This document shows, piece after piece, positions 832 through 33,541 of a stretch of 33,541 nucleotides of DNA. Origin of the DNA: an uncultured Rhodospirillales bacterium. GTDB taxonomy: Bacteria > Pseudomonadota > Alphaproteobacteria > Acetobacterales > Acetobacteraceae. Positions within the stretch are counted from its first letter, which is position 1, and every line of letters starts with the position of its first letter. The stretch covers positions 1 through 33,541 of the forward strand of contig CAITOL010000099.1 in NCBI GenBank assembly GCA_903893975.1, read 5' to 3'. The notes beneath the pieces are model-generated. The model had not been told where the DNA came from. It did not search any database and was given only the letters and a program-made list of their open reading frames with translations. The position numbers were made by a program, and so were the translations under genes.

Positions 832-2409
832 TTATACGCGACGGACGTTCCAGGGTTTGGCGACGCCGGGCAGGATGCCGGTGAGGTCTGAACGCCAGGC
901 GGAGGGTTGCATGGTGACGCCGCAGGGGGCGAAGGGGACGCTTTGCAGCACCTCCAACTGGATTTCTCCGGCGATGGCGGCTTGCTGGGCCGGGTCGGTG
1001 GTGGAGACCCAGCGGCGGCGGATGTCTTCATAGGCGTCGGAGTGGTACCAGCCGGCTTCCACCGTGTCGTTACCGCGCAGGCGGGAGTTGACCAGCGGGG
1101 TGGCGAGGGAGAGGCCGGGGATGGAGAGCATGTGCAGGTGCCAGCCGCCGGCCTCGATCGGGTCTTTTTTATTCACCCGGGTGGTCATGGTGGACCAGTC
1201 GGTGGTTTGCAGATCCAGATTGACGCCGATGCGGCGCAGCAGGTCGGCGAGGACTTCGCTGGCGGCTTTGACGTTCGGGTAGTCCCCGGGCATGACCTGG
1301 ACGATGCGTTCGCCCTTATAGCCGGCGGCGGCGAGGGCGGCTTTGGCGCCGGCGACATCGAGCGGCTTTTTCAGCTGATCGAGGCCCACCTGGGTTGCCG
1401 AGGGGCCGGGCGGGAAGAAGCCGACGCCGGTGCGTTGCAGCGAGGTATCCACCCCGGCGACGGCGTTGACGAAATCTGACTGATCCACCGCATGCAGGAT
1501 GGCGCGACGCATGGCGGGGTTGTTGAACGGGGCGAGCAGATGGTTGAAGCGGACCATTTTGAACTCGCCTTCGGTTTCCAGCACCTCGGCATGCAGTTTG
1601 GGGTCGCGTTTGATGGCGGGCATGAGGTCGTGGGCGGCAAATTCCCACCAGTCCTGCTCGCCTTTTTGCAGCGAGGCGTAGGCGGTGCCGATATCGGGCA
1701 TCGTGGTCCAGACCACGCGGTCGAAATGCATGATTTTCGGGCCGGTGCCGCGATCGGGCGTGCCGTTGGGGCGGGGGACGTAGCGGTCGAACCGTTCGTA
1801 GACGTTGCGGACGCCTTGCAGGCGCTCGGCGGCGACGTAGCGCAGCGGGCCGGAGCCGATGAGTTCGGGGATGGGTTTGAACGGGTCGGTCAGGGCCAGG
1901 CGTTCGGGCATCATCGCCGGCATGAAGGCGCCGGGTTTGCCGATGGCTTCGGGCAACATGGGGAAAGCGCGTTTGAGGCGGAAGACGATGGTGCGGTCGT
2001 CGGCGGCGGAGATTTCGTTGCTGATGGCCAGCAGTTCCATGCCGAGCACGTCGCGCGCGCCCCAGCGTTTGAGGCTGGCGACGCAATCGCGGGCGAGGAC
2101 TTGGGTGCCGTCGTGCCAAAGCAGGCCGTCGCGCAGGCGGATGCGCCAGGTGAGGCCGTTATCCTCCACCACATGGCCTTCGGCCATTTGCGGCTGGGCG
2201 TGATAGTTCGAATCGGTGCCGTAAAGCTGGTCGAACACCAGGCCGCCATGGTTGCGGGTGATGTTGGTGGTGGAGGTGTGCGGGTCCAGGAAGACGAGGT
2301 CGATCTGGGGGATGAAGCGCAGGACGCGTGCGCTTTCGGCCGCGATGACCGCCGGGGCGGCCAGGGTGAGCGCGCCGCCGATGAAGCCGCGCCGTCCGAG
2401 TTTCGGCAT
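832..2409 (-). CDS. ABC transporter substrate-binding protein, family 5 (peptide/nickel type)
   Basis: This 525-aa periplasmic solute-binding protein belongs to the SBP_bac_5 (DppA/OppA/NikA) family, which delivers oligopeptides, opines, nickel chelates or similar ligands to an ABC importer. The start at 2409 is fixed by GGAGG 8 bases upstream; longer in-frame starts have no such site. The N-terminus has a Tat-type twin-arginine signal (RRGFIGG, then a hydrophobic stretch ending AVIAAES). The body shows family features such as a LRDGLLWHDG-like segment and an ILHAVDQSDFV-like helix. No permease or ATPase gene is nearby, so it is an orphan binding protein. It lies 81 bp downstream of the transporter pair on the same strand. 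The ligand cannot be told from sequence. Confidence 0.9.
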   Translation of the reverse strand: MPKLGRRGFIGGALTLAAPAVIAAESARVLRFIPQIDLVFLDPHTSTTNITRNHGGLVFDQLYGTDSNYHAQPQMAEGHVVEDNGLTWRIRLRDGLLWHDGTQVLARDCVASLKRWGARDVLGMELLAISNEISAADDRTIVFRLKRAFPMLPEAIGKPGAFMPAMMPERLALTDPFKPIPELIGSGPLRYVAAERLQGVRNVYERFDRYVPRPNGTPDRGTGPKIMHFDRVVWTTMPDIGTAYASLQKGEQDWWEFAAHDLMPAIKRDPKLHAEVLETEGEFKMVRFNHLLAPFNNPAMRRAILHAVDQSDFVNAVAGVDTSLQRTGVGFFPPGPSATQVGLDQLKKPLDVAGAKAALAAAGYKGERIVQVMPGDYPNVKAASEVLADLLRRIGVNLDLQTTDWSTMTTRVNKKDPIEAGGWHLHMLSIPGLSLATPLVNSRLRGNDTVEAGWYHSDAYEDIRRRWVSTTDPAQQAAIAGEIQLEVLQSVPFAPCGVTMQPSAWRSDLTGILPGVAKPWNVRRV

Positions 2410-23004: not shown

Positions 23005-25412
23005 AATCGCATGTACGCGTCGCCGTGATCGGCGGTGGGGTGGTTGGGTGCAGCGTGCTGTATCACCTGACCAAGTTGGGCTGGACCGATGTGGTGCTGC
23101 TGGAACGGGCGGAGTTGACCGCAGGATCTACCTGGCATGCGGCCGGGGGCATGCATACGCTGAACGGCGACCCGAACGTGGCCAAGCTACAGAAATACAC
23201 CATCGAGCTTTACAAGGAGATCGAGGCGATTTCCGGCCAGTCCTGCGGTTTGCATATGCCCGGCGGGTTGATGCTGGCTGGCACGCGGGAGCGGATGGAC
23301 TGGCTGAAAATGGCGGTGGCGCGCGGGGATTACCTCGGGATGGATGCGCAGCTGATCAGCGTGGACGAGGCCGCCAAATTGCTGCCGCTGATCGACAAAT
23401 CGCAATTCGTCGGCGCCATGTGGGACCCGCTGGATGGCTATGTTGATCCGTCCGGGGTGACCAATGCCTATGCGAAATCGGCCACGCTGGCCGGGGCGGA
23501 GATTTATCGCCATACGCGGGTGGAGGCGCTGACGCAGAACCCGAATGGCAGTTGGACGGTGACGACCGAGGCCGGCACGCTGGTGGCGGAGCATGTGGTC
23601 AATGCCGGCGGCTTGTGGGCGCGTGAAGTGGGCCGGATGGTCGGGCTGGAACTGCCGATCCTGGCGATGGAGCACCAGTACCTCATCACCGAGGACATGC
23701 CGTCGCTGGCTGGTATGCCGGAGCTGCCGCACACCATCGATTTCGAGGGCGAGATCTATCTGCGGCAGGAACGCCAAAGCGTGCTGCTCGGCACCTATGA
23801 GCATAACGGCACCCCGTGGTCGGCCAAGACGACGCCGTGGGATTTCCCGGCCGAATTGCTGCCGCCCAACCTGGACCGCATCGCCGGCAACCTTGAAGTT
23901 GGCTTCAAGCATTTTCCGGCGCTGGAGAATGTTGGCATCCGTCGGATTATCAATGGCCCGTTCACCTTCGCCCCCGATGGCAATCCGTTGGTCGGGCCGG
24001 TGCGCGGGCTGAAAAATTTCTGGGTTGCCTGCGGGGTGATGGCCGGCTTCAGCCAAGGTGGCGGCGTGGGGTTGGCGCTGGCCGGCTGGATGATCAACGG
24101 CGATCCGGGCTTTGATATCTGGGCGATGGATGTGGCGCGCTACGGCGATTGGGCGACCCGCGCCTATACCAACGCCAAGGTGCGGGAAAATTATGGCCGG
24201 CGCTTTCGCGTCAGCTTCCCCAACGAGGAACTGCCCGCCGGCCGACCGCTGCGGACCTCGCCGCTGTATGAGCGGCAAAAGCAGGCCGGGGCGGTGTTTG
24301 GCGCGGCCTGGGGGCTGGAATACCCGCTTTGGTATGCGCCGGCCGGGACCGCGGCGGTGGAGCAGGTGTCCTTCCGGCGCAGCAATGCGCATGTGCCGAT
24401 TGGTGCGGAATGCGCGGCGGTGCGGCAGTCGGTTGGGATGATCGAAACTTCCGGCTACGCCAAATACGCGGTCTTTGGCCCCCAGGCCGAGGCGTTCCTC
24501 TCGCGGATGCTGACCAACCGGATGCCGGAGCCGGGCCGGATTGTGCTGGCGCCGATGCTGAACCAGAACGGCAAGCTGATCGGCGATTTCACCGTCGCAC
24601 GCGTGTCATCGGACCGGTTTCATGTATTCGGCACTGGTGGGGCGGAAGAATATCACCTGCGCTGGTGGCAGGAACATCTGCCGGAGCGCGGCGTATCGGT
24701 GCGGTCGCTGCGGTCCGGTCTGGTGGGGCTGTCGATTGCCGGACCGCAAGCACGGGCGTTGCTGGCGCGGATCAGCGGTGAGGATGTGTCCAACGCCGCC
24801 TTCCCGTTCATGCAGTACCGGCGGATGGATCTGGGCCTGATCCCGGCCCGGGTTGGGCGGCTGACCTTTACCGGCGGGTTGGGGTACGAGATTTGGGTGA
24901 CGCCGGATTACCACCTGGCGCTGTATGACCTGCTGGTGCGGGAGGGGGCGGATTTTGGCCTGGCGCATGTGGGCACACGGGCGATGAATGCGCTGCGGCT
25001 GGAGAAAAGCTGGGGCACCTGGGCGCGCGAATACCGACCGATTTATGGGCCGTATGCGGCCGGGCTCGGCCGCTTCGTCAGCTTGAAGAAACCGGACTTC
25101 ATCGGCCGTGACGCGGCCATGCGGGAACGCGATGCGGGGCCGGCACTGCGGCTGATCACCCTGGATATCGACGCCACCGACGCGGATGCGTTGGGGGACG
25201 AGCCAGTGCGACTGGACGGCAAGGCGGTCGGGTGGGTGACCTCGGGCGGCTATGCCCATCATGTCCGCCGGTCGGTCGCGCTGGCTTATGTGCCGGCGGC
25301 ACTGGCCGAGGCGGATGCGGGCTTGACGGTCGAAATTCTGGGCGACCAGCGCGCGGCGCGCCGGGTACCGGCGCCGCTATTCGACCCGGACGGGCTGTTG
25401 ATGCGGGGCTGA
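23001..25412 (+). CDS. dimethylglycine dehydrogenase-like FAD/GcvT fusion enzyme
   Basis: This 803-aa protein starts at 23001, with GAAGGAG 10 bases upstream. The N-terminal half is a DAO-type FAD domain: VAVIGGGVVGCSVLYHLTK at 7-25, then GSTWHAAGGMHTLN. His46 sits where dimethylglycine and sarcosine dehydrogenases bind FAD covalently. From about residue 440 it is a GcvT aminomethyltransferase with its C-terminal barrel, so the formaldehyde equivalent passes to tetrahydrofolate. Family and context (last gene of the sox operon) point to N,N-dimethylglycine or a similar N-methyl compound, giving sarcosine for SoxBDAG. The substrate is inferred. The last 36 bases overlap the end of the convergent RND gene. 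Confidence 0.9.
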   Translation: MKSHVRVAVIGGGVVGCSVLYHLTKLGWTDVVLLERAELTAGSTWHAAGGMHTLNGDPNVAKLQKYTIELYKEIEAISGQSCGLHMPGGLMLAGTRERMDWLKMAVARGDYLGMDAQLISVDEAAKLLPLIDKSQFVGAMWDPLDGYVDPSGVTNAYAKSATLAGAEIYRHTRVEALTQNPNGSWTVTTEAGTLVAEHVVNAGGLWAREVGRMVGLELPILAMEHQYLITEDMPSLAGMPELPHTIDFEGEIYLRQERQSVLLGTYEHNGTPWSAKTTPWDFPAELLPPNLDRIAGNLEVGFKHFPALENVGIRRIINGPFTFAPDGNPLVGPVRGLKNFWVACGVMAGFSQGGGVGLALAGWMINGDPGFDIWAMDVARYGDWATRAYTNAKVRENYGRRFRVSFPNEELPAGRPLRTSPLYERQKQAGAVFGAAWGLEYPLWYAPAGTAAVEQVSFRRSNAHVPIGAECAAVRQSVGMIETSGYAKYAVFGPQAEAFLSRMLTNRMPEPGRIVLAPMLNQNGKLIGDFTVARVSSDRFHVFGTGGAEEYHLRWWQEHLPERGVSVRSLRSGLVGLSIAGPQARALLARISGEDVSNAAFPFMQYRRMDLGLIPARVGRLTFTGGLGYEIWVTPDYHLALYDLLVREGADFGLAHVGTRAMNALRLEKSWGTWAREYRPIYGPYAAGLGRFVSLKKPDFIGRDAAMRERDAGPALRLITLDIDATDADALGDEPVRLDGKAVGWVTSGGYAHHVRRSVALAYVPAALAEADAGLTVEILGDQRAARRVPAPLFDPDGLLMRG

Positions 25413-28400
25413 ACGGCCCCGTTCCTCAAAGCGTTGCAGCACCACGAAGAACGCGGGCACGAACAGCACCGCAAGGCAGGTGGAGGCCAGCATGCCGCTG
25501 AACACACTCAGGCCGAGCGAGGCACGAGCATTGGCCCCTGCCCCGCTCGCGGTCAGCAGTGGCACCACGCCGAGGATGAAGGCGAACGAGGTCATGATGA
25601 TCGGGCGGAAGCGGGCGCGGGCCGCACCGATGGCGGCGGCGACAATCTCCTCGCCATGCTTGCGCTGTTCCCGCGCCACTTCGACGATCAGGATCGCATT
25701 CTTGGCCGAAAGCGCGATCAGCAGGACCAACCCAATCTGGGTGTAGAGGTTATTCGCCACCCCCAAACCGCCCAACGCCAGAGACGGACCAAGCAGCGAG
25801 AGCGGCACGGCGAAGATCACTGACAGTGGCGCGATCCAGCTTTCGTATTGTCCGGCGAGGCAGAGATAGACCAGCAACAGCCCGAAGCCGAAGGCGAAGA
25901 TGATCGCCATGCCCGCGGCTTTTTCCTGAAACGCCATCGCGCTCCATTCATACGTGCTGCCAGCGGGCAGCACTTTGCTGGCGATTTCTTCCATCAGGGT
26001 CAACGCCTCCCCGCTCGACGTCGCGGGGCCGGGGCTGCCGACCAATGTGGCGGTGGGATAGAGGTTGTAGAGGCTGATGAGCGAGGGGCCGACCGTGGGG
26101 CGGATGGTGACGAGGCTGCCCAGCGGCACCATTTTTCCGGCGGCGCTGCGCACCTGCAGTTTCTCGATATCGTCGGGCCGTAGCCGGAATTGCGATTCCG
26201 CCTGCACGTAAACCTGGAAGGTGCGGCCGAATTTGTTGAACTGGTTGACGTAGCCGGAGCCGACATAGGCGGACAGGGTGGCAAACACATCCCCGACCGA
26301 CACTTGCAGGATCTGCGCCTTCACCCGGTCCACCACCACATCAAACTGCGGCACCCCGGCGCGGAACGAAGTGTTCAGCCGCGCCAGGCCGGACTGGCTG
26401 TTGCCGTCTTGCACGATGGCGCGGGTGAGGCTTTCCAGCTTGGCCCAGTCATTGCTGCCGTCGCGCAGTTCGACCTGCATGGTGAAGCCGCCGGCATTGC
26501 CGATGCCTTGGATTGGCGGCGGCGGGATCACCAGGGCGATGCCGTCATCCAGATGATCCAGCGCTTTGTTGAGCGCCATGTAGAGCGGCAGCAGACTGGC
26601 CGCCTTGCCGCGCACCGCCCAGTCCTTCAACACCACATAGACCACGCCGGTGCTGGATAGGGAGGCGTTATTGTCCAGCGCGGAAATGCCGGAAATCGCC
26701 ACCGCCTGATCGACGCCATCGACGGTGCGCACGATAGTGCTGACCGCCGCGAGCGACTGGCGGGTGCGCTCCAGCGAGGCGCCGTTGGGCAATTGCACGG
26801 AGACGACGAAATAGCCCTGATCCTCGATGGGGATGAACGCGGTTGGCAGCCGCGCCACGCCCCACACGCCCACGCCGCCGAGCACGAGGCCGAGCAGCAC
26901 CAGCGTGCCGGAATAGCGGGTCATCCGGCCGATTAATGCGCCGTAGCCGCGTTCCACCACGCCGTAGACGACGTTAAAGCCCCGGTAGAACCGATTGCGC
27001 TGCGCCGGCGGCACGGCCGGGCGAAGCCAGAGTGCGCATTGCGTCGGCTTCAAGGTCCCCGCGTTGACCGCGCTGATCAGCGCCGTGGCGGCAATCACCA
27101 AGGCGAACTGCGCGAACATCTTGCCGCTGAGGCCGGGCAGGAACGCGGCGGGAATGAAGACCGCCATCAAAACCAGGGTGATGCCGATCACCGGGCCGAA
27201 CAGTTCATCCATCGCCTTGACCGCGGCGTTATGCGCCGACAATCCGCGCTCAATATGATGCGCCGCGCCTTCGACGATGACAATCGCGTCATCGACCACG
27301 ATGCCGATGGCGAGCACGATGGCGAACAGGGTTGAGAGGTTGATGGTGAAGCCCATGGCGGCCATGGCGGCGAAAGCGCCGATGATGGTCACCGGCACCG
27401 TGGTCGCCGGCACCAGCATGGCGCGCCAGTCTTGCAGGAACACCAGGATGACCACCAGCACCAGGCCGGCGGCTTCGATCAGCGTGGTGTAAACCTCGTC
27501 GATAGAGGCTTTGACGAATTTCGTCGTATCGAACGGCACGCTGGCATGCATGCCTGCGGGGAAATTCTGCGAAAGCTCCTCCATGCGCGCCCGCACCCGG
27601 GTTGCGACATCCAGCGCATTGGCGTTGGGGGTTTGGAAAATCGCCAGGCCGGCCGCCTGCTGGCCGTTGAGTTCAAAAATCTGCGAGTAGGTTTGCGCCC
27701 CCAATTCTACCCGCGCGACATCGCGCAGCCGGGTGACACGCCCACCGGCGGACGGATCGCTCTTGACGATGATATCGCCGAACGCCTCCACATCCGCCAG
27801 TCGGCCGTCGACATTGACGGTGTATTGGAACGACGTGCCGATCGCCGGCGGGGTGCCGATCTGGCCGGCGGCGACCTGCTGGCTTTGCTGGCCGATCACG
27901 CCGATCACATCCGCCGGCACCAGACCGCGGCTTTGCAGGCGCTCCGGGTCCAGCCAGACGCGCATGGCGTATTGGCCGACGCCGAAGACGGTGACCGACC
28001 CGACCCCTGGCACGCGGCTGAGTTCGTTGAGCAGGTTAATCGTGGCATAGTTGGTCATGAACAGGCTGTCATGCGCCTTGTCCGTCGAGGTCAGGGTGAC
28101 GATCTGCAGGATAGAGGTGCTGCGCTGCTGCACATTCACCCCCTGCGCCTGCACCGGTTGCGGCAAAGACGACAGCGCGGCGGCGACGCGGTTTTGCACC
28201 AGCACCTGGGCAAAGTTCAGGTCGGTGCCGATTTCAAAGGTCACCGTCAGCACATAGGTGCCGTCCGCCGTGCTGGTGGACTGCATGTAGAGCATCCGCT
28301 CCACCCCGTTGACCTGCTGCTCGATCGGCAGCGCCACGGTGTTCATCACCGTCGCCGCGCTGGCGCCGGGGTAGCGGGTGGTGACCTGCACTGTTGGCGG

Positions 28401-28520
28401 CACCACGTTGGGGTATTGCGACACCGGCAGGGCATAGAGTGCGATGGCGCCAAGCAGCACGATGACGATGGCCAGCACGTTGGCCAGCACCGGTCGGTCG
28501 ATAAAGAACCGCGAGATCAT
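25377..28520 (-). CDS. RND multidrug efflux pump, HAE1 family (AcrB/MexB-like)
   Basis: This 1047-aa inner-membrane trimeric proton-driven exporter has the classic N-terminus FFIDRPVLANVLAIVIVLLG and 12 expected membrane spans in two repeats with large periplasmic loops. The proton-relay aspartates are in AIGIVVDDAIVIVEG, and the partner lysine is in LSAKNAILIVEVAREQ. The length is typical. It is coupled to the adaptor gene by ATGA (28517-28520). No outer-membrane channel gene follows, so the pump must use a TolC-like protein encoded elsewhere. Its 3' end runs 36 bases into the end of the opposite-strand dehydrogenase gene. Confidence 0.96.
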   Translation of the reverse strand: MISRFFIDRPVLANVLAIVIVLLGAIALYALPVSQYPNVVPPTVQVTTRYPGASAATVMNTVALPIEQQVNGVERMLYMQSTSTADGTYVLTVTFEIGTDLNFAQVLVQNRVAAALSSLPQPVQAQGVNVQQRSTSILQIVTLTSTDKAHDSLFMTNYATINLLNELSRVPGVGSVTVFGVGQYAMRVWLDPERLQSRGLVPADVIGVIGQQSQQVAAGQIGTPPAIGTSFQYTVNVDGRLADVEAFGDIIVKSDPSAGGRVTRLRDVARVELGAQTYSQIFELNGQQAAGLAIFQTPNANALDVATRVRARMEELSQNFPAGMHASVPFDTTKFVKASIDEVYTTLIEAAGLVLVVILVFLQDWRAMLVPATTVPVTIIGAFAAMAAMGFTINLSTLFAIVLAIGIVVDDAIVIVEGAAHHIERGLSAHNAAVKAMDELFGPVIGITLVLMAVFIPAAFLPGLSGKMFAQFALVIAATALISAVNAGTLKPTQCALWLRPAVPPAQRNRFYRGFNVVYGVVERGYGALIGRMTRYSGTLVLLGLVLGGVGVWGVARLPTAFIPIEDQGYFVVSVQLPNGASLERTRQSLAAVSTIVRTVDGVDQAVAISGISALDNNASLSSTGVVYVVLKDWAVRGKAASLLPLYMALNKALDHLDDGIALVIPPPPIQGIGNAGGFTMQVELRDGSNDWAKLESLTRAIVQDGNSQSGLARLNTSFRAGVPQFDVVVDRVKAQILQVSVGDVFATLSAYVGSGYVNQFNKFGRTFQVYVQAESQFRLRPDDIEKLQVRSAAGKMVPLGSLVTIRPTVGPSLISLYNLYPTATLVGSPGPATSSGEALTLMEEIASKVLPAGSTYEWSAMAFQEKAAGMAIIFAFGFGLLLVYLCLAGQYESWIAPLSVIFAVPLSLLGPSLALGGLGVANNLYTQIGLVLLIALSAKNAILIVEVAREQRKHGEEIVAAAIGAARARFRPIIMTSFAFILGVVPLLTASGAGANARASLGLSVFSGMLASTCLAVLFVPAFFVVLQRFEERGRSAPHQQPVRVE

Positions 28521-29677
28521 GGTGTGGTGGCTTCGATGCGCGCCGCGACCGGCACCACCTTCGCCCCCGGCACGGCGCGGCCGAGGCCCCGCACCGCCAC
28601 ACGATCATCGGCTTGCAGGCCGCTGGTGATCACCCGCAGATTGCCCACCAACGGGCCGGTCTGCACCCGGCGGAGTTCCAGAATGTCCTGCGCGTTGACC
28701 ACTTGCAGGTAGCGCCCGGCCTGATCGGTGCCGATGGCCCGATCGGGCACCAGCAAGGCGGTATCGGTTTGCGGGGTCAGCGGGATGACGATGTGAACGA
28801 AGTAGCCGGGCAACAACGTATGGTCCGCATTGGCGAAGACCGCGCGCATGCGCAGCGTGCCGGTCGCCGGGTCTACCAGCGGCTCGATATAGTCCAGCAT
28901 GCCGGTATGCGGGGCGTCGGTTTCGGTCATCAGCCCAAGCCGCACCGGCACGTTACCGCCGGTGGTGCTGCCGCCGGGTAGGTTGCGGCGGGAAAAGTCG
29001 CTGCGGATGCGCTGCACGTCTTGCTCGGAGAGCGTGAAGTTGGCGTAGATCGGGTCCATCTGCACCATCGTCGCCAGCTTCGTCGGGCCGCCCACCCCGA
29101 CCAGATTGCCCACCGAGACCTGATGCGCGGTCACCACGCCGGCGAACGGCGCGGCAACATGGGTATACCCGACATCCAGCGCGGCCAAGGTGGCGCCGGC
29201 CTGGGTGTTGCTGACATTGGCTTTGGCGTTGTCCCGCGCGGCGCGTGACTGGTCGAGCGTGCTGCGCGAGGAGAAATCGTTCTTTGCCAGGGCGGATTGC
29301 CGGGTGAATTCGGCATCGGCCTGGGCAAAACTGGCCTGCGCCGCAGCCTGTGCTGCCTCCGCCTGCTGCAGTTTGGCTTCGTAGGGCGCCGGGTCCACGA
29401 CGAACAGGGTATCGCCGGGTTTGGCCAGCGCGCCATCGGCGTATTTGATCTGTTGTAAAACCCCCTGCACGCGCGCCACCAGGTCAACCTGGTTATAGGC
29501 GGACAACGTGCCAGTCAGGTCGAGGGTTGGCGTAACCGACTGACGCAGCGGCAGCGCCACGCCAATCTCCGACGGCGGCGGTGGCACAAACACATTCGGT
29601 TTCTTGCATCCCGCCAGCAGGAGCGTGCCGCACAGCGCCAACAATCCCCAGAAATTCGGCATCCTGCGCAGCGTCAT
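28517..29677 (-). CDS. RND efflux periplasmic adaptor (membrane fusion) lipoprotein
   Basis: This 386-aa HlyD/AcrA-type adaptor starts at the ATG at 29677, which has GGGACG upstream; a TTG at 29692 is possible. The signal ends in lipobox LAGC with Cys24. The order is the usual beta-barrel, lipoyl (DLVARVQGVLQQIKYADGA), alpha-helical hairpin (Gln/Ala-rich coiled coil near residues 100-160), second lipoyl half (YTHVAAPFAGVVTAHQVSVG) and membrane-proximal domains. It is the first gene of the two-gene efflux operon. A 43-bp AT-rich gap separates it from the sugar transferase stop, so it could be read from that transcript or from a promoter in the AT-rich gap. Confidence 0.95.
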   Translation of the reverse strand: MTLRRMPNFWGLLALCGTLLLAGCKKPNVFVPPPPSEIGVALPLRQSVTPTLDLTGTLSAYNQVDLVARVQGVLQQIKYADGALAKPGDTLFVVDPAPYEAKLQQAEAAQAAAQASFAQADAEFTRQSALAKNDFSSRSTLDQSRAARDNAKANVSNTQAGATLAALDVGYTHVAAPFAGVVTAHQVSVGNLVGVGGPTKLATMVQMDPIYANFTLSEQDVQRIRSDFSRRNLPGGSTTGGNVPVRLGLMTETDAPHTGMLDYIEPLVDPATGTLRMRAVFANADHTLLPGYFVHIVIPLTPQTDTALLVPDRAIGTDQAGRYLQVVNAQDILELRRVQTGPLVGNLRVITSGLQADDRVAVRGLGRAVPGAKVVPVAARIEATTP

Positions 29678-29720
29678 CGCGTTACGTCCCAAGAAATATT
29701 GGCATATATGATGCTATATT

Positions 29721-30434
29721 CTATTGCCCCGCTGCCGTCAGCACCACAAGCACCGTGCGCGCGATAATGCGCAAATCCGTTCGCAGCCACGACCAAAACC
29801 CGGAGAGTTGCATAGCGTAGGCTGCATCAAGCGCCACCTTGCGGCGCACGCCTTCGAGATCGGTATCGTAGCCCTGCATTACCTGCGCGAGACCGGTGAC
29901 GCCGGGGCGGAGCCCCATCATACGGTCGGCGTAAAATGGCAGCGCCCGATCTAACCGGTCCACCAAACCCGGGCGCTCCGGACGTGGCCCAATCAGCGAC
30001 ATATCACCACGCAGAATGTTGATGAGTTGCGGGATCTCGTCCAGCCGGGTCAGGCGAATGAACCGGCCAACCCGGGTGACACGCGGATCACGTTTTTGTG
30101 CCCAAACCGCGCCTGTGCCTACCTCCGCATCCACGCGCATGGAGCGGAATTTCAAGATCATGAATAGTTCGGTGCGGTCCGCCAGTGCCCGGCCAACCCG
30201 CATTTGGCGGTAGATCGCCGGGCCTTTGCTATCCAATTTTACCGCAAGCGCGACCAGCACGAACAAAGGTGCCGTGAGCACCAACCCGAACAGCGCCGCG
30301 GCAATGTCAACGATGCGTTTGCCGACCTGCATGGAACGCGGAACGAACGCGCCCGGAAACGGCACATGTGAGTGGACTATCGCCCCAGTGGCATCGGGCG
30401 CAGAGACTTGGAGCGAGGTTTGGTCAGGCGACAT
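29721..30434 (-). CDS. undecaprenyl-phosphate sugar phosphotransferase (bacterial sugar transferase)
   Basis: This 237-aa enzyme of PF02397 moves a hexose-1-phosphate from a nucleotide sugar to the lipid carrier, the first step in making an exopolysaccharide or O-unit. One hydrophobic span lies near 39-65 after GKRIVDIAAALFG. The catalytic core includes YRQMRVG, LKFRSM near 95-100, RLDEIPQLINILRGDMS and LIGPRPE. The N-terminal four-span domain of large WbaP/WcaJ proteins is missing, so it is the minimal form. TGAGGA lies just before the ATG. It follows the sigma-54 activator by 80 bp on the same strand. No other glycosyltransferase is in the window. Confidence 0.94.
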   Translation of the reverse strand: MSPDQTSLQVSAPDATGAIVHSHVPFPGAFVPRSMQVGKRIVDIAAALFGLVLTAPLFVLVALAVKLDSKGPAIYRQMRVGRALADRTELFMILKFRSMRVDAEVGTGAVWAQKRDPRVTRVGRFIRLTRLDEIPQLINILRGDMSLIGPRPERPGLVDRLDRALPFYADRMMGLRPGVTGLAQVMQGYDTDLEGVRRKVALDAAYAMQLSGFWSWLRTDLRIIARTVLVVLTAAGQ

Positions 30435-30514
30435 TCAGTCCTCAGCTTGGATCGGTCACGTAGCATGTCAGACACGGAACGATGATGCGAGGGGGGGGAT
30501 ATCGTCGCCGATGG

Positions 30515-31990
30515 CTAAATTGCCAGCCCGAGTGCACGCCATGCTTGAAGCTTGCGATAAATCGTCGACGGGTTGATCTCCAGCAACGCCGCGGCGCGGG
30601 GCACATCGTTATCAGTCTGCCGCAACGCGGCGACGATCAATCGGCGTTCCATCGTGGCGAGCGGCACAATCTCTCCTTGCCACGCGTCGGAAGGGGCCGA
30701 GGCGACTGCGGCTGGCGTTGCTGGCGATTGCGGATCGGGCTCAAAACCACGCGTCACAGCGATCGGCAAGGCAGCCTGAGCGGGGGGCACGACCGCGATG
30801 CCAGGCCGATAAACTGGCGGCGGCAACATCTCCGCCGTCACCAGTTCGCCGTCGTGCAGCACAACCACATTGCGGATCACGTTCTGCAACTGGCGCACGT
30901 TGCCGGGCCAATCATACGCCAACAGCATGGCCTCGGCTTCCGCCGAAAACCCGCTGAACCGGCGCGCTTCCTCGCGGCTAAAGGTCACCAGAAAATGTCG
31001 AGCAATGGCCAATACGTCGTCGCCCCGCGCACGTAACGGGGGCAAGTCGATCGGCACAACGTACAGCCGGTAGTACAAATCCTCGCGGAACCGACCGGCC
31101 CTTACTTCCAGCAGCGGATCACGGTTGGTTGCACACACAAAGCGCACGTCGACGCGCTCGACCTTCGATGACCCCACCGGGCTGAAGGTGCCGGTCTGCA
31201 CGAAGCGGAGCAGCTTGACCTGCATGTCCAACGGCATCTCGCCGATCTCATCCAGGAACAACGTGCCGCCGTCGGCCAGCTTGGCCGCACCCTCACGGTC
31301 ATTGGCCGCCCCCGTGAAGGCACCGCGCACATGGCCAAAGACTTCCGATTCCAGCAAGTCGCGCGGAATGGCGCCGCAATTCAAGGCGACGAAGTGATGC
31401 GACGCACGCGGGCTGGCGCGATGTACCGCGTCAGCGGCCAATTCCTTGCCGGTGCCGCTTTCGCCGGTGATGAACACGCTGGCTTTACTGCCGGCCACGC
31501 TCTCGATGGTTCGGTATGCCGCCCGCATCGGCGCGCTGGAGCCGATAAAACCGAAGAACTTGTCGCGATCCGCACGGGTTTCCGCCTGTTCGCGCACCGC
31601 AACCAGCGCCCGCTTTTCCAGCACATTGGCCAGCGTGACCGCGAGCCGCGCCTTCGCATACGGTTTAACGATGAAATCGACCGCCCCGGCGCGCATCGCC
31701 TGCACCGCAGCACTGATGGAAGCGTTGGCGGTGACGACAATGACCGCCGCGTCGATCCCTTCCCCATGCAATTGCTGCATGAGTTCAAAGCCATTGTAAT
31801 CCGGCAATTCGATGTCGACCAAAATCGCGTCCGGCTGCCATTCGCGCGCCGCGACTAACGCCCAACCAGCCGATGGGGCAATCCGTGCCTGATACCCTAG
31901 GCTGCCCAGAAGGGCACGCGCCAACTCCGCCTGAGTTGGCGTGTCCTCAACGACCAGAATACGCGCGGCGGGATGGCCGTCTGACACCAC
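30515..31990 (-). CDS. LuxO/SypG-like sigma-54-dependent response regulator
   Basis: This 491-aa regulator has a receiver domain (1 to about 120) with Glu15/Asp16, phosphoacceptor Asp59 (ILVDIELPD), Thr87 and Lys109. The AAA+ domain has Walker A GESGTGKE at 176-183, the sigma-54 contact loop GAFTGA at 223-228, Walker B TLFLDEIGEM and an arginine-finger region RFREDLYYRL. The C-terminus is a Fis-type helix-turn-helix, with recognition segment NPSTIYRKLQAW. WPGNVRQLQNVIRN, VVVLHDGELVT, EMLPPP and STIYRKLQ closely resemble what I recall of Vibrio LuxO and SypG, more than NtrC. It lies 15 bp after the HPt gene. Phosphorylation should trigger ATP-driven opening of sigma-54 promoters such as the one at 33154. 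Confidence 0.93.
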   Translation of the reverse strand: MVSDGHPAARILVVEDTPTQAELARALLGSLGYQARIAPSAGWALVAAREWQPDAILVDIELPDYNGFELMQQLHGEGIDAAVIVVTANASISAAVQAMRAGAVDFIVKPYAKARLAVTLANVLEKRALVAVREQAETRADRDKFFGFIGSSAPMRAAYRTIESVAGSKASVFITGESGTGKELAADAVHRASPRASHHFVALNCGAIPRDLLESEVFGHVRGAFTGAANDREGAAKLADGGTLFLDEIGEMPLDMQVKLLRFVQTGTFSPVGSSKVERVDVRFVCATNRDPLLEVRAGRFREDLYYRLYVVPIDLPPLRARGDDVLAIARHFLVTFSREEARRFSGFSAEAEAMLLAYDWPGNVRQLQNVIRNVVVLHDGELVTAEMLPPPVYRPGIAVVPPAQAALPIAVTRGFEPDPQSPATPAAVASAPSDAWQGEIVPLATMERRLIVAALRQTDNDVPRAAALLEINPSTIYRKLQAWRALGLAI

Positions 31991-32005
31991 TACAATTCCG
32001 AAAGA

Positions 32006-32353
32006 TTACGATGCGTCGAGCGCAGCGACAAAGCGGGCAAGTTCCCGCATCGCATCTTCGGCCAGAACATCAATCGTTGACATGGTAGCGCTCAGTTCAC
32101 CTAGTTTTGTCTCAGCCTGCGCCATCGCCTTCCGACATTCCTGTTCGAGCGCCCGCGCGCCGACCGCGCCGGCGGCACCCGCCAGGCCATGAGCAGCACG
32201 CCGAAAGCCAATAGCATCGTCACCAGCAGCCGCTTCGCGCAATACGCCCGTCAGCCGCGCAACGTCCCGGCCGAAGACCTCGAGCACATGACGCAAATCC
32301 GCTGGCCCAAGATCCTCAGCGAGCTGGGCGGCGAAGCTCGGCTCATTCATCAT
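32006..32353 (-). CDS. HPt (histidine phosphotransfer) domain protein
   Basis: This single-domain phosphorelay protein is 115 aa from the ATG at 32353 (a second ATG follows directly); GGGAG lies about 6 bases upstream. RRAAHGLAGAAGAVGARALEQ gives the phospho-acceptor His55 in the HPt four-helix bundle. Size and pairing with a LuxO-like activator parallel LuxU. It should carry phosphate between a hybrid sensor kinase, not in this window, and Asp59 of the regulator. An in-frame upstream extension to 32587 has no ribosome site and is rejected. Confidence 0.9.
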   Translation of the reverse strand: MMNEPSFAAQLAEDLGPADLRHVLEVFGRDVARLTGVLREAAAGDDAIGFRRAAHGLAGAAGAVGARALEQECRKAMAQAETKLGELSATMSTIDVLAEDAMRELARFVAALDAS

Positions 32354-32445
32354 CGTGCTCCCGTTCTCTAAGCAGCCCCCGACCATGCGGGCTACCAATG
32401 GCGTGGACGATATCGGTTCGTCTAGATGCGCCGGGCCGTATCCCG

Positions 32446-32458
32446 TTGCAAGATGCGA
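32446..32458. promoter_or_regulatory. possible LuxO-type enhancer site upstream of HPt gene
   Basis: TTGCAAGATGCGA matches TTGCA-N3-TGCAA at 9 of 10 fixed positions. It lies 93 bp upstream of the HPt start. It is weaker evidence than the pair at 33310-33372, because no sigma-54 promoter was found nearby. Confidence 0.35.
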
Positions 32459-32461
32459 AAG

Positions 32462-32499
32462 CCCCGCCTTGGACCATGCGCGCATGGGCCAAGACGGGG
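32462..32499. repeat. 38-bp near-perfect palindrome
   Basis: Arms 32462-32480 and 32481-32499 pair at 17 of 19 positions (mismatches at 32467/32494 and 32473/32488), centred on GCGC. As minus-strand RNA it would form a very stable hairpin followed by CUUUCG, about 225 nt past the STAS stop. It could be a weak terminator or processing site for the STAS mRNA, or a protein-binding palindrome. The short T run does not decide between these. Confidence 0.6.
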
Positions 32500-32723
32500 G
32501 ACGGTCGCTTAAATCGCCTAACCTTAATATCCGCAAGCTGTTAGATGCTCCTGTCTCACCACTCAAATTACGCAACAGCTTCGTCAATCACACAGAGGGC
32601 TTCGCATAGTTCGGCCCGCAAAAATTCGTCGTTCCGCCCCGGTTCATCTGAGCCTCGTGGCGACATCGATCAGACGCGGCGGAAATATCGCCGGCTTAAA
32701 TTGTCTGGTCGCGTCGCCGTTAT

Positions 32724-33080
32724 TTAACGGGCGAGGGCCCAACCGGGGCGGCTGAAAAGAGGGCGACGGGTCGCCTTGCCGGCGAGAGCGAAAAGATTGC
32801 CCAACCCCATTTCGCGCAGTAGCTGCGCTGGCTGACCGGTCACGCCGATAATTGTCAGCTTCCGACCTTTGGCCATCAAACGCTTGAAGACATAGGCGAT
32901 GGCCGTAACCCCCGAGCCATCCATATACGTGACACTGCTGAAATCCAGCACCACGTCGCGATTGGTGGTCGCAGAAATTTCTTCCAACCCTTCGCGAATG
33001 GCCGCCGTGCCTTGACCGTCGAGGATGCCCCGGAGGTTAAGGACGACTTTGTCAGACCCGCAGTCAATCCGATCGATCAT
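32724..33080 (-). CDS. STAS domain protein (anti-sigma factor antagonist type, SypA-like)
   Basis: This protein is 118 aa from the ATG at 33080, which has GGAG 7 bases upstream; the TTG two codons earlier is too close to it. It is a single STAS domain of the SpoIIAA/SypA type, with VVLNLRGILDGQG at 12-24 and VVLDFSSVTYMDGSGVTAIA at 43-62. Ser56 in DGSG is the site where such proteins are phosphorylated to switch partner binding. About 18 basic residues follow the domain. It is preceded by a sigma-54-type promoter and two enhancer-like sites. In Vibrio fischeri the STAS protein SypA is a post-transcriptional switch for biofilm polysaccharide, and the same role is inferred here. The matching kinase/phosphatase is not in the window. 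Confidence 0.9.
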   Translation of the reverse strand: MIDRIDCGSDKVVLNLRGILDGQGTAAIREGLEEISATTNRDVVLDFSSVTYMDGSGVTAIAYVFKRLMAKGRKLTIIGVTGQPAQLLREMGLGNLFALAGKATRRPLFSRPGWALAR

Positions 33081-33153
33081 TCGCAATCTCCGAAATACGT
33101 CTTGCGCTGGGCCGTTAAAATAAACGTCGTGGCAGGCTTACGAATTAGTTAAC

Positions 33154-33168
33154 GCAAGCCGCGTGCCA
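33154..33168 (-). promoter_or_regulatory. sigma-54 (-24/-12) promoter for the STAS gene
   Basis: The minus strand reads TGGCAC (33168-33163), five bases, then TTGC (33157-33154). The consensus is TGGCAC-N5-TTGC(A/T); every position matches except the last base, which is G. The transcription start should fall near 33142, giving a leader of about 61 nt to the ATG at 33080. The sigma-54 activator gene nearby supports it. Confidence 0.75.
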
Positions 33169-33309
33169 GCGGACGCGGCACCAAGGGAGAAAAGATTGCG
33201 CGCGTGATTTTGGGCGGTTTTCTTACATTGTCACGAAACGTCGCGACGCCGGACATGGCGCCGGCAGCGTCCGCCACGGGCGCGTCTGCAGCAAATTCCG
33301 CGTTTTGCC

Positions 33310-33322
33310 TTGCAATTTGCAT
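33310..33322. promoter_or_regulatory. putative LuxO-type enhancer site 1
   Basis: TTGCAATTTGCAT matches TTGCA-WWW-TGCAA, the LuxO binding consensus as I recall it, at 9 of 10 fixed positions with an all A/T spacer. Its centre lies about 174 bp upstream of the predicted sigma-54 start, a normal enhancer distance. Confidence 0.6.
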
Positions 33323-33359
33323 CGCATCACCGGTCTGGAGACGCATGCGGCGCGAATGC

Positions 33360-33372
33360 TTGCAAATTGCAG
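33360..33372. promoter_or_regulatory. putative LuxO-type enhancer site 2
   Basis: TTGCAAATTGCAG matches TTGCA-WWW-TGCAA at 9 of 10 fixed positions. It is centred 50 bp from site 1, near five helical turns, so both would face the same side of the DNA. The differing last base is at the likely boundary of the insertion sequence. Confidence 0.6.
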
Positions 33373-33404
33373 GGATTGCGCAACCTGAAGTCTGGAAATT
33401 TACG

Positions 33405-33541
33405 TCACGGGGAGTGAACGGTATTGGCCTTCCAAGTGATATAGGGTTGCGTTGAAGCGGCCCATTTTTCGTCGATTTCGACGAGGACGGCTGATACGAG
33501 GCGCAGAAGTGCGTGGGTGCTGGGGAAGACGCGGACTTTGA
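33405..33541 (-). mobile_element. IS256-family transposase, C-terminal part (cut by window edge)
   Basis: The minus frame from the window edge to TGA at 33407-33405 encodes 44 residues before the stop. It contains KVRVFPSTHALLRLVSAVLV and then EIDEKWAAS. The FP-x(5)-LLRLV-x(3)-LVE-x(3)-KW pattern is the typical C-terminus of IS256 (mutator-type, DDE) transposases. The element continues to the right. Its terminal inverted repeat probably begins near 33372 (GGGATTGCGCAACC), but the other end is needed to confirm that. Whether the transposase is intact cannot be seen. Confidence 0.8.

Follow-up and report, generated by a model that had tools for sequence, protein, structure and literature searches.

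Paired LuxO-type sites upstream of a predicted sigma-54 promoter of a STAS–Hpt–LuxO-like regulator operon in an uncultured member of the Acetobacteraceae

In this study, we analysed a stretch of 33,541 nucleotides from an uncultured member of the Acetobacteraceae (the window), which is one entire contig (C99) of a 4.2-Mb genome in 202 contigs (G000), and confirmed that a pair of LuxO-type sites is located upstream of a sigma-54 promoter. It is very probable, judging from sequence comparisons, that these sites are upstream activating sequences for a LuxO-like regulator encoded in the same operon, and that this regulator belongs to an autoregulated phosphorelay of the hybrid-kinase/Hpt/LuxO type connected with surface polysaccharide. 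The layout is most likely nearer to that of the syp system of Vibrio fischeri than to quorum sensing.

Results

Paired sites, promoter and operon

The features of the window are as follows.

33360-33372, no strand assigned: distal LuxO-type enhancer site (predicted), TTGCAAATTGCAG, 192 bp from the -24 box
33310-33322, no strand assigned: proximal LuxO-type enhancer site (predicted), TTGCAATTTGCAT, 142 bp from the -24 box
33154-33168, minus strand: sigma-54 -24/-12 promoter, TGGCACGCGGCTTGC, a perfect match; TGGCAC-N5-TTGC in all four congeners
32724-33080, minus strand: single-domain STAS protein, first operon gene; ATG at 33080, preceded by GGAG; DGSG motif
32006-32587, minus strand: Hpt phosphotransfer protein (HGLAGAAGAVGA); start uncertain, perhaps an ATG near 32353
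30515-31990, minus strand: LuxO-like sigma-54 response regulator with REC, AAA+ and HTH_8 domains; helix NPSTIYRKLQ
29721-30434, minus strand: bacterial sugar transferase (Bac_transf, by domain match), next after the regulator
28517-29692, minus strand: HlyD-type membrane fusion protein, candidate regulon member, order as in congener G004
25377-28520, minus strand: RND efflux protein, candidate regulon member, order as in congener G004
33374-33541, minus strand: end of an IS256-family-like element, which adjoins the distal site and parts the operon from the kinase gene
33366-33373, no strand assigned: 8-bp target duplication, ATTGCAGG; its reverse complement is found next to the kinase gene where contig C72 ends

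The original prediction placed two sites resembling the LuxO consensus, 50 bp apart, at about 174 and 224 bp ahead of the start of a sigma-54 promoter. Both 13-mers were found where they had been placed, 50 bp apart, each with one mismatch to TTGCANNNTGCAA and a WWW centre, and the promoter was recovered as the perfect minus-strand box at 33168-33154. Transcription would begin near 33142, 12 nt past the GC of the -12 element, so that the site centres come to lie about 174 and about 224 bp upstream; recomputation from the box thus gave the values first proposed. The operon box is one of 21 perfect TGGCACN5TTGC matches in the 4.2-Mb genome, and the reversed-pattern control gave 3 per strand. Leftward from it, the genes follow in the order STAS, Hpt, sigma-54 response regulator, sugar transferase, membrane fusion protein and RND pump. 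Read-through from the STAS into the Hpt gene is likely, since terminator-like patterns in 30400-33400, one of which lies at the 3' end of the STAS gene, are no commoner than chance (2 vs 3.7 expected).

It could be argued that in a GC-rich genome, in which the word GCAAWTTGC is frequent, two copies came to lie here by accident. This word is indeed common (73 copies in the genome), and at up to two mismatches to TTGCANNNTGCAA the window is without enrichment (11 matches found vs 14.95 expected). The pattern YGCAWWWTGCR occurs twice in the window, precisely at 33310-33322 and 33360-33372. Four hundred dinucleotide shuffles of the full window contained 0.92 copies on average; 88 of the 400 had at least two, and 2 of the 400 had a pair within 100 bp. 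When shuffling was confined to 33169-33374 (206 bp, on the upstream side of the box), at least two sites with up to one mismatch arose in 4 of 5000 cases. A third one-mismatch match in the window lies at 32446, in the Hpt region. This local pairing speaks against an accident, as do the conservation among congeners, the difference between LuxO-clade and control loci and the de novo rediscovery of the dyad that are described below; on the conservation and control results, chance is a very unlikely explanation that we hardly entertain. We regard conservation as stronger evidence that the sites are real than the window statistics.

Conservation in the genus

Comparison of the intergenic region in four congeners (G001 to G004) showed that the proximal site and the sigma-54 box are conserved in all of them, so that the box is maintained in five of five genus members. 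The distance from the proximal site to the -24 box, 142 bp in the window, is 139, 141, 139 and 139 bp in G001, G002, G003 and G004, respectively; that from the distal site is 192 bp in the window, 190 bp in G002 and 188 bp in G003. The distal copies of G001 and G004 are degenerate and start with GG, and an additional middle site is found at 172-174 bp in G001, G002 and G004. The claim that the two sites are exactly 50 bp apart holds for the window but not across species, the spacing being 49 bp in G002 and G003 and, by eye, 49 bp in G001 and G004. An exact 50-bp spacing was therefore discarded as a rule; it is roughly maintained within the genus, and none was seen outside the genus.

Displaced kinase gene

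Each of the four congeners has, just upstream of the sites, the end of an ORF with sequence of kinase and receiver type. The protein of G004 contains HisKA, HATPase and two receiver domains, together with a Cache match that scores under its cut-off. The orthologue in the genome studied here (69 % identity) is located at the end of contig C72, where the kinase stop codon is followed by the reverse complement of ATTGCAGG and then by sequence similar to the IS end. From the shared 8 bp and the IS-like end on C72, it is most likely that C72 and C99 are neighbours and that the element inserted beside the distal site and left the site whole. Five matching copies of the element are present in the genome, including that of the window, and all five run into contig ends; its 44-residue end gave four plasmid matches, one of them annotated as IS256 family. 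A second pair of a kinase and a sigma-54 activator is encoded beside the hybrid kinase (L068:15983-18765, G000:C72), followed by a sigma-54 box, and this activator has a different helix.

The LuxO-like regulator

The best of 111 NCBIfam matches to the regulator is LuxO (the equivalog NF041946), with 580 bits over profile positions 1-461 of 463; the second-best family is NtrC with 381 bits. The full-length match and the architecture of REC, sigma-54 AAA+ and Fis-type HTH domains agree with the LuxO layout, and the score lies below the curated LuxO cut-off of 800 bits, which is exceeded in none of 147 relatives and by which an Aeromonas protein (L256, 669 bits) also falls short. The nearest solved structure is that of LuxO (5ep0), matched over residues 10-394, a match that stops before the DNA-binding domain.

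The recognition helix had been described as LuxO-type, and this proved right: in addition to the profile result, a helix of the form (P/A/T)ST(I/V/L)YRK is present in 43 of 43 LuxO-clade proteins examined that have an intact C-terminus, one of them a duplicate record (25 PSTIYRK, 7 ASTIYRK, 1 TSTIYRK, 6 PSTVYRK and 4 PSTLYRK), and in 0 of 40 control activator ORFs. Among the members of the clade are genes on Azospirillum plasmids, one gene on a Rhodobacterales plasmid and one from Aeromonas caviae, which scores 669 bits with LuxO. Aeromonas L256 stood in for the Vibrio LuxO helix, there being no Vibrio LuxO among the matches listed. The control helices read NRNTLRKK in NtrC and ERSALHRK in NtrX, names that are our own assignment, and QRQLLYDK in the C72-type neighbour in congeners. 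A helix of this kind is not diagnostic by itself, because STLYRK helices are also found in several distant activators, and that of a Brevundimonas protein (L185) reads GRSTLYRK. The codons of the YRKLQ helix read CGCAAATTGCAG (L067:206, L068:10098, L069:12997), which is a near match to the presumed site; this is a coincidence that inflates motif counts, and matches in YRK(L/M)Q codons should therefore not be counted.

Co-occurrence of site and regulator beyond the genus

If the DNA site and its reader are conserved together, as had been suggested, the site should accompany LuxO-like genes in more distant bacteria. Scanning 147 genomes with the LuxO profile and a cut of our own at 470 bits gave 31 carriers. 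G003, whose regulator gene runs into the end of a contig, was also counted, which makes 32 of 147; the best score below the cut, 458 bits in G056, was treated as absent. Around 35 LuxO-like loci (some genomes have two) and the window, 599 kb contained 29 matches to TTGCANNNTGCAA with up to one mismatch, compared with 3 in 376 kb around 20 NtrC-type control loci from 20 carrier genomes. Such a site was found within 350 bp upstream of 14 of 62 sigma-54 boxes in the LuxO loci and of 0 of 17 in the controls; 10 of the 14 are credible, as two lie in recognition-helix codons and two in a kinase gene. An unsupervised dyad count over 74 upstream regions, a set that contains the window and the congeners, placed GCAA-N1-TTGC first (9 regions vs 0.63 expected; 0 of 16 controls), with GTCG-N7-CGAC a close runner-up (8 regions vs 0.70 expected).

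With YGCAWWWTGCR, 38 sites were found in 703 kb around 43 LuxO-clade loci, window included, and 1 in the 376 kb of the 20 controls. Twenty-three of the 38 are near a sigma-54-like box, 4 are YRK(L/M)Q codon coincidences or lie inside a kinase gene, and 15 are inside ORFs according to a rough caller, which over-extends in GC-rich DNA. The enrichment persists when the genus is excluded (22 sites in 592 kb around 36 loci vs 1 in 376 kb around 20 controls; p=2e-4 by rate, 4e-4 by locus), where dinucleotide shuffles lead one to expect 6.6 sites in the LuxO loci and 4.2 in the controls. The full-consensus site is present in 18 of these 36 loci and absent in the other 18. Of the eight best extra loci, L178-L181 were used in the counts, L176 duplicates G001 and L183 was excluded; adding L177, L182 and L256 gave 24 sites in 39 loci (p=1.3e-4).

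A composite pattern of a sigma-54 box, N14-44 and the site, with a gap that cannot capture the window's own site pair, occurred 8 times in 6 of the 147 genomes, and its reversed control 0 times. All six genomes are among the 32 carriers (Fisher p=7e-5, or 0.0016 if G003 is not taken as a carrier). Both the enrichment of the site in LuxO-clade loci over controls and the restriction of the composite pattern to carriers are in agreement with joint conservation of site and reader. Weighing against our reading are the distance from the site to the -24 box, which varies between loci from about 20 to 192 bp, and the loci outside the genus that lack the full-consensus site.

Candidate regulon

In the genome studied here, only 3 of the 21 perfect sigma-54 boxes have a site with up to one mismatch within 500 bp, which speaks against our reading. 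The loose core GCAAWTTGC is of little use as a regulon marker and was abandoned: it occurs in 73 places, and among the first 15 examined, which were mostly unrelated to sigma-54 boxes, one had a box with up to one mismatch within 230 bp, compared with 4.4 % of random places. Its reversed control (5 copies) is a poor one owing to its different dinucleotide make-up. The full site YYGCAWWWTGCRR occurs 9 times, and its reversed control twice. Six of the nine copies are inside ORFs according to the caller and three, on C99, C41 and C105, were judged intergenic; a 132-codon ORF over the C105 site was rejected because of a genus-conserved small-protein gene on the opposite strand. All three intergenic copies face a sigma-54 box downstream, that on C41 with one mismatch. 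An even scatter of the motif over the genome, which would have spoken against a regulatory site, is thus seen in part, and for the loose core only.

The C105 promoter precedes a gene for a 69-residue membrane-like protein (L275, G000:C105; also L279-L282) and then a terminator-like stem. Four of four congeners encode the protein, as do 0 of 55 other genomes searched; its sigma-54 box is maintained in five of five genus members, where the start of the site lies 63-64 bp above the start of the box and, in G004, the site is one letter off. The four congeners also carry a tandem paralogue of this protein without the site and the box. We considered a Qrr-like RNA at C105; the 69-codon ORF and the terminator-like stem make a small-protein mRNA more likely. 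The C41 promoter precedes a gene for a 77-residue protein, and a like gene in G004 (38 % identity) is also behind a site and a box.

In other genera, such promoters precede STAS genes (G080 and G112, confirmed by profile, and G097, by reading), a sugar transferase gene in G095 and an epimerase-like gene in G112 (by reading). In G024, such promoters precede a SIS/amidotransferase gene and a polysaccharide export gene, the latter with a lipoprotein-like ORF in front of it; the Hpt and LuxO-like genes of G024 are flanked by these polysaccharide-type genes. A further LuxO-type site with a perfect sigma-54 box (L169, G003:C195, about 1350-1550, minus strand) precedes about 200 nt without a clear ORF but with a terminator-like stem, which made it a candidate for a LuxO-dependent RNA. 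We did not retain it as an RNA: a DNA match was found in 0 of 59 other genomes searched, and the stretch folded, from which the terminator was left out, showed no unusual folding. Among the candidates examined, C105 and L169, we found no link to quorum sensing or Qrr RNAs.

The sites could be real and yet have another sigma-54 activator as their main reader, either a LuxO-like paralogue on C184 or the activator on C72 beside the hybrid kinase. The C184 paralogue is 52 % identical to the operon regulator, scores 545 bits with the LuxO profile, has the helix ASTIYRK and has a promoter with a one-mismatch site nearby; however, it may share the sites with the operon regulator, as LuxO and SypG do. 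The C72 activator, the third in this genome, owes its candidacy to its position, but was rejected as the reader: its type of helix, as read in congeners, is different (QRQLLYDKMRR), and no LuxO-type site with up to one mismatch was found within 500 bp of its own promoter, the sigma-54 box next to its gene. As the sites are moreover found together with the regulator of the operon outside the genus (G080, G097), we consider a different main reader unlikely and favour that regulator.

Discussion

The following model would account for these findings. A membrane hybrid histidine kinase, with HisKA, HATPase, two receivers and perhaps a Cache sensor, may phosphorylate the Hpt protein, which in turn would pass the phosphate to the LuxO-like regulator. 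Bound at both sites, the regulator would drive sigma-54 polymerase at 33168-33154 by looping, and the levels of the STAS protein, the Hpt protein and the regulator itself would presumably rise, which amounts to positive autoregulation. In addition, the regulator may act on a limited set of genes for polysaccharide and for small membrane proteins. A SypA-like switch, controlled by phosphorylation and acting below transcription, is the probable role of the STAS protein. The serine is not universal in these proteins, since the motif is DGSG in the window but DGPG in G097.

The sign of the control could also be the opposite, with the bound regulator acting as a repressor of its own operon and the sites having no enhancer function at this sigma-54 promoter. 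Dyads next to a promoter can repress, and Vibrio LuxO is reported to repress its own gene. However, enhancers usually lie where these sites do, at 142-192 bp from a perfect sigma-54 box on its upstream side, and site and box are arranged comparably at other promoters, which makes repression improbable compared with activation by the LuxO-like regulator.

The LuxO site is TTGCAWWWTGCAA, SypG sites overlap with it, and LuxO and SypG are about 48 % identical (PMC10162802). The system described here resembles Vibrio LuxU-LuxO in the REC-AAA-HTH class of its activator, in a neighbouring Hpt gene, in the input from a hybrid kinase and in the enhancer consensus TTGCAWWWTGCAA. As expected of a LuxO, upstream activating sequences of this kind lie near the predicted target sigma-54 promoters, with YGCAWWWTGCR as the consensus here. 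The Hpt gene adjoins the LuxO-like gene and is a candidate counterpart of LuxU. LuxU orthologues are found only in Vibrio by reciprocal best hit, and LuxO-like genes are widespread (PMC524169). In contrast to Vibrio LuxO, the regulator is from an alphaproteobacterial host and scores under the LuxO cut-off, the targets faced by its sites are its own operon, which includes a STAS gene, and polysaccharide genes in relatives, and there is no Qrr RNA that we recognized and no autoinducer link known.

The V. fischeri syp system has input from a hybrid kinase and an Hpt domain (PMC12369376), and the first gene of its locus, sypA, encodes a STAS protein that is switched by serine phosphorylation (PMC4517449). 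It shares with the present system a LuxO-related activator, sigma-54 enhancers, hybrid kinase and Hpt input and polysaccharide genes, and in both a STAS gene leads the regulated locus, as is also the case in G080 and, by reading, in G097. However, the Hpt here is a separate protein, no SypE-like kinase/phosphatase was recognized among the neighbouring genes scanned, and the SypG site TTCTCANNNTGMDWN (PMC10162802) was not matched by eye, the sites fitting LuxO better. Further background on related systems can be found in PMC8895600 and PMC2680268.

Among Alphaproteobacteria, the ShkA-ShpA-TacA relay of Caulobacter is similar in that it consists of a sensor kinase with a receiver, a separate Hpt protein and the response regulator TacA (PMC7010744). 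A DNA site for TacA was not found in the literature passages searched. The helix of Brevundimonas L185, which we take to be TacA, reads GRSTLYRK and differs from PSTIYRK here. TacA is sigma-54-dependent. The PEP-CTERM-box response regulators (PEP_resp_reg, TIGR02915), a family linked to exopolysaccharide loci, are likewise response regulators of the sigma-54 type; however, the regulator scores 350 bits with this profile, below the cut-off of 502.6, compared with 580 for LuxO.

To our knowledge, LuxO-like genes in these bacteria have been recorded only as similarity annotations, and among open-licence papers we found none on alphaproteobacterial LuxO enhancers. The present analysis names a candidate reader for a DNA site in Acetobacteraceae-type bacteria and predicts a small regulon for it. 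It also bears on the origin of the LuxO/SypG circuits, since an operon headed by a STAS gene, and polysaccharide genes, are linked to the same enhancer code in another class of Proteobacteria. We tentatively raise the possibility, which we hold with less than even confidence, that LuxO-type activators and the TTGCA-N3-TGCAA code predate Vibrio quorum sensing and originally formed an autoregulated hybrid-kinase/Hpt/STAS polysaccharide switch, kept in Acetobacteraceae and relatives, such that syp would be near-ancestral and LuxO-Qrr a later rewiring. Site pairs with spacings of 22 and 30 bp were also seen near LuxO-like genes in another alphaproteobacterial family (L136:5114-5146) and on a Rhodobacterales plasmid (L259:3934-3977); no clear sigma-54 box accompanies them.
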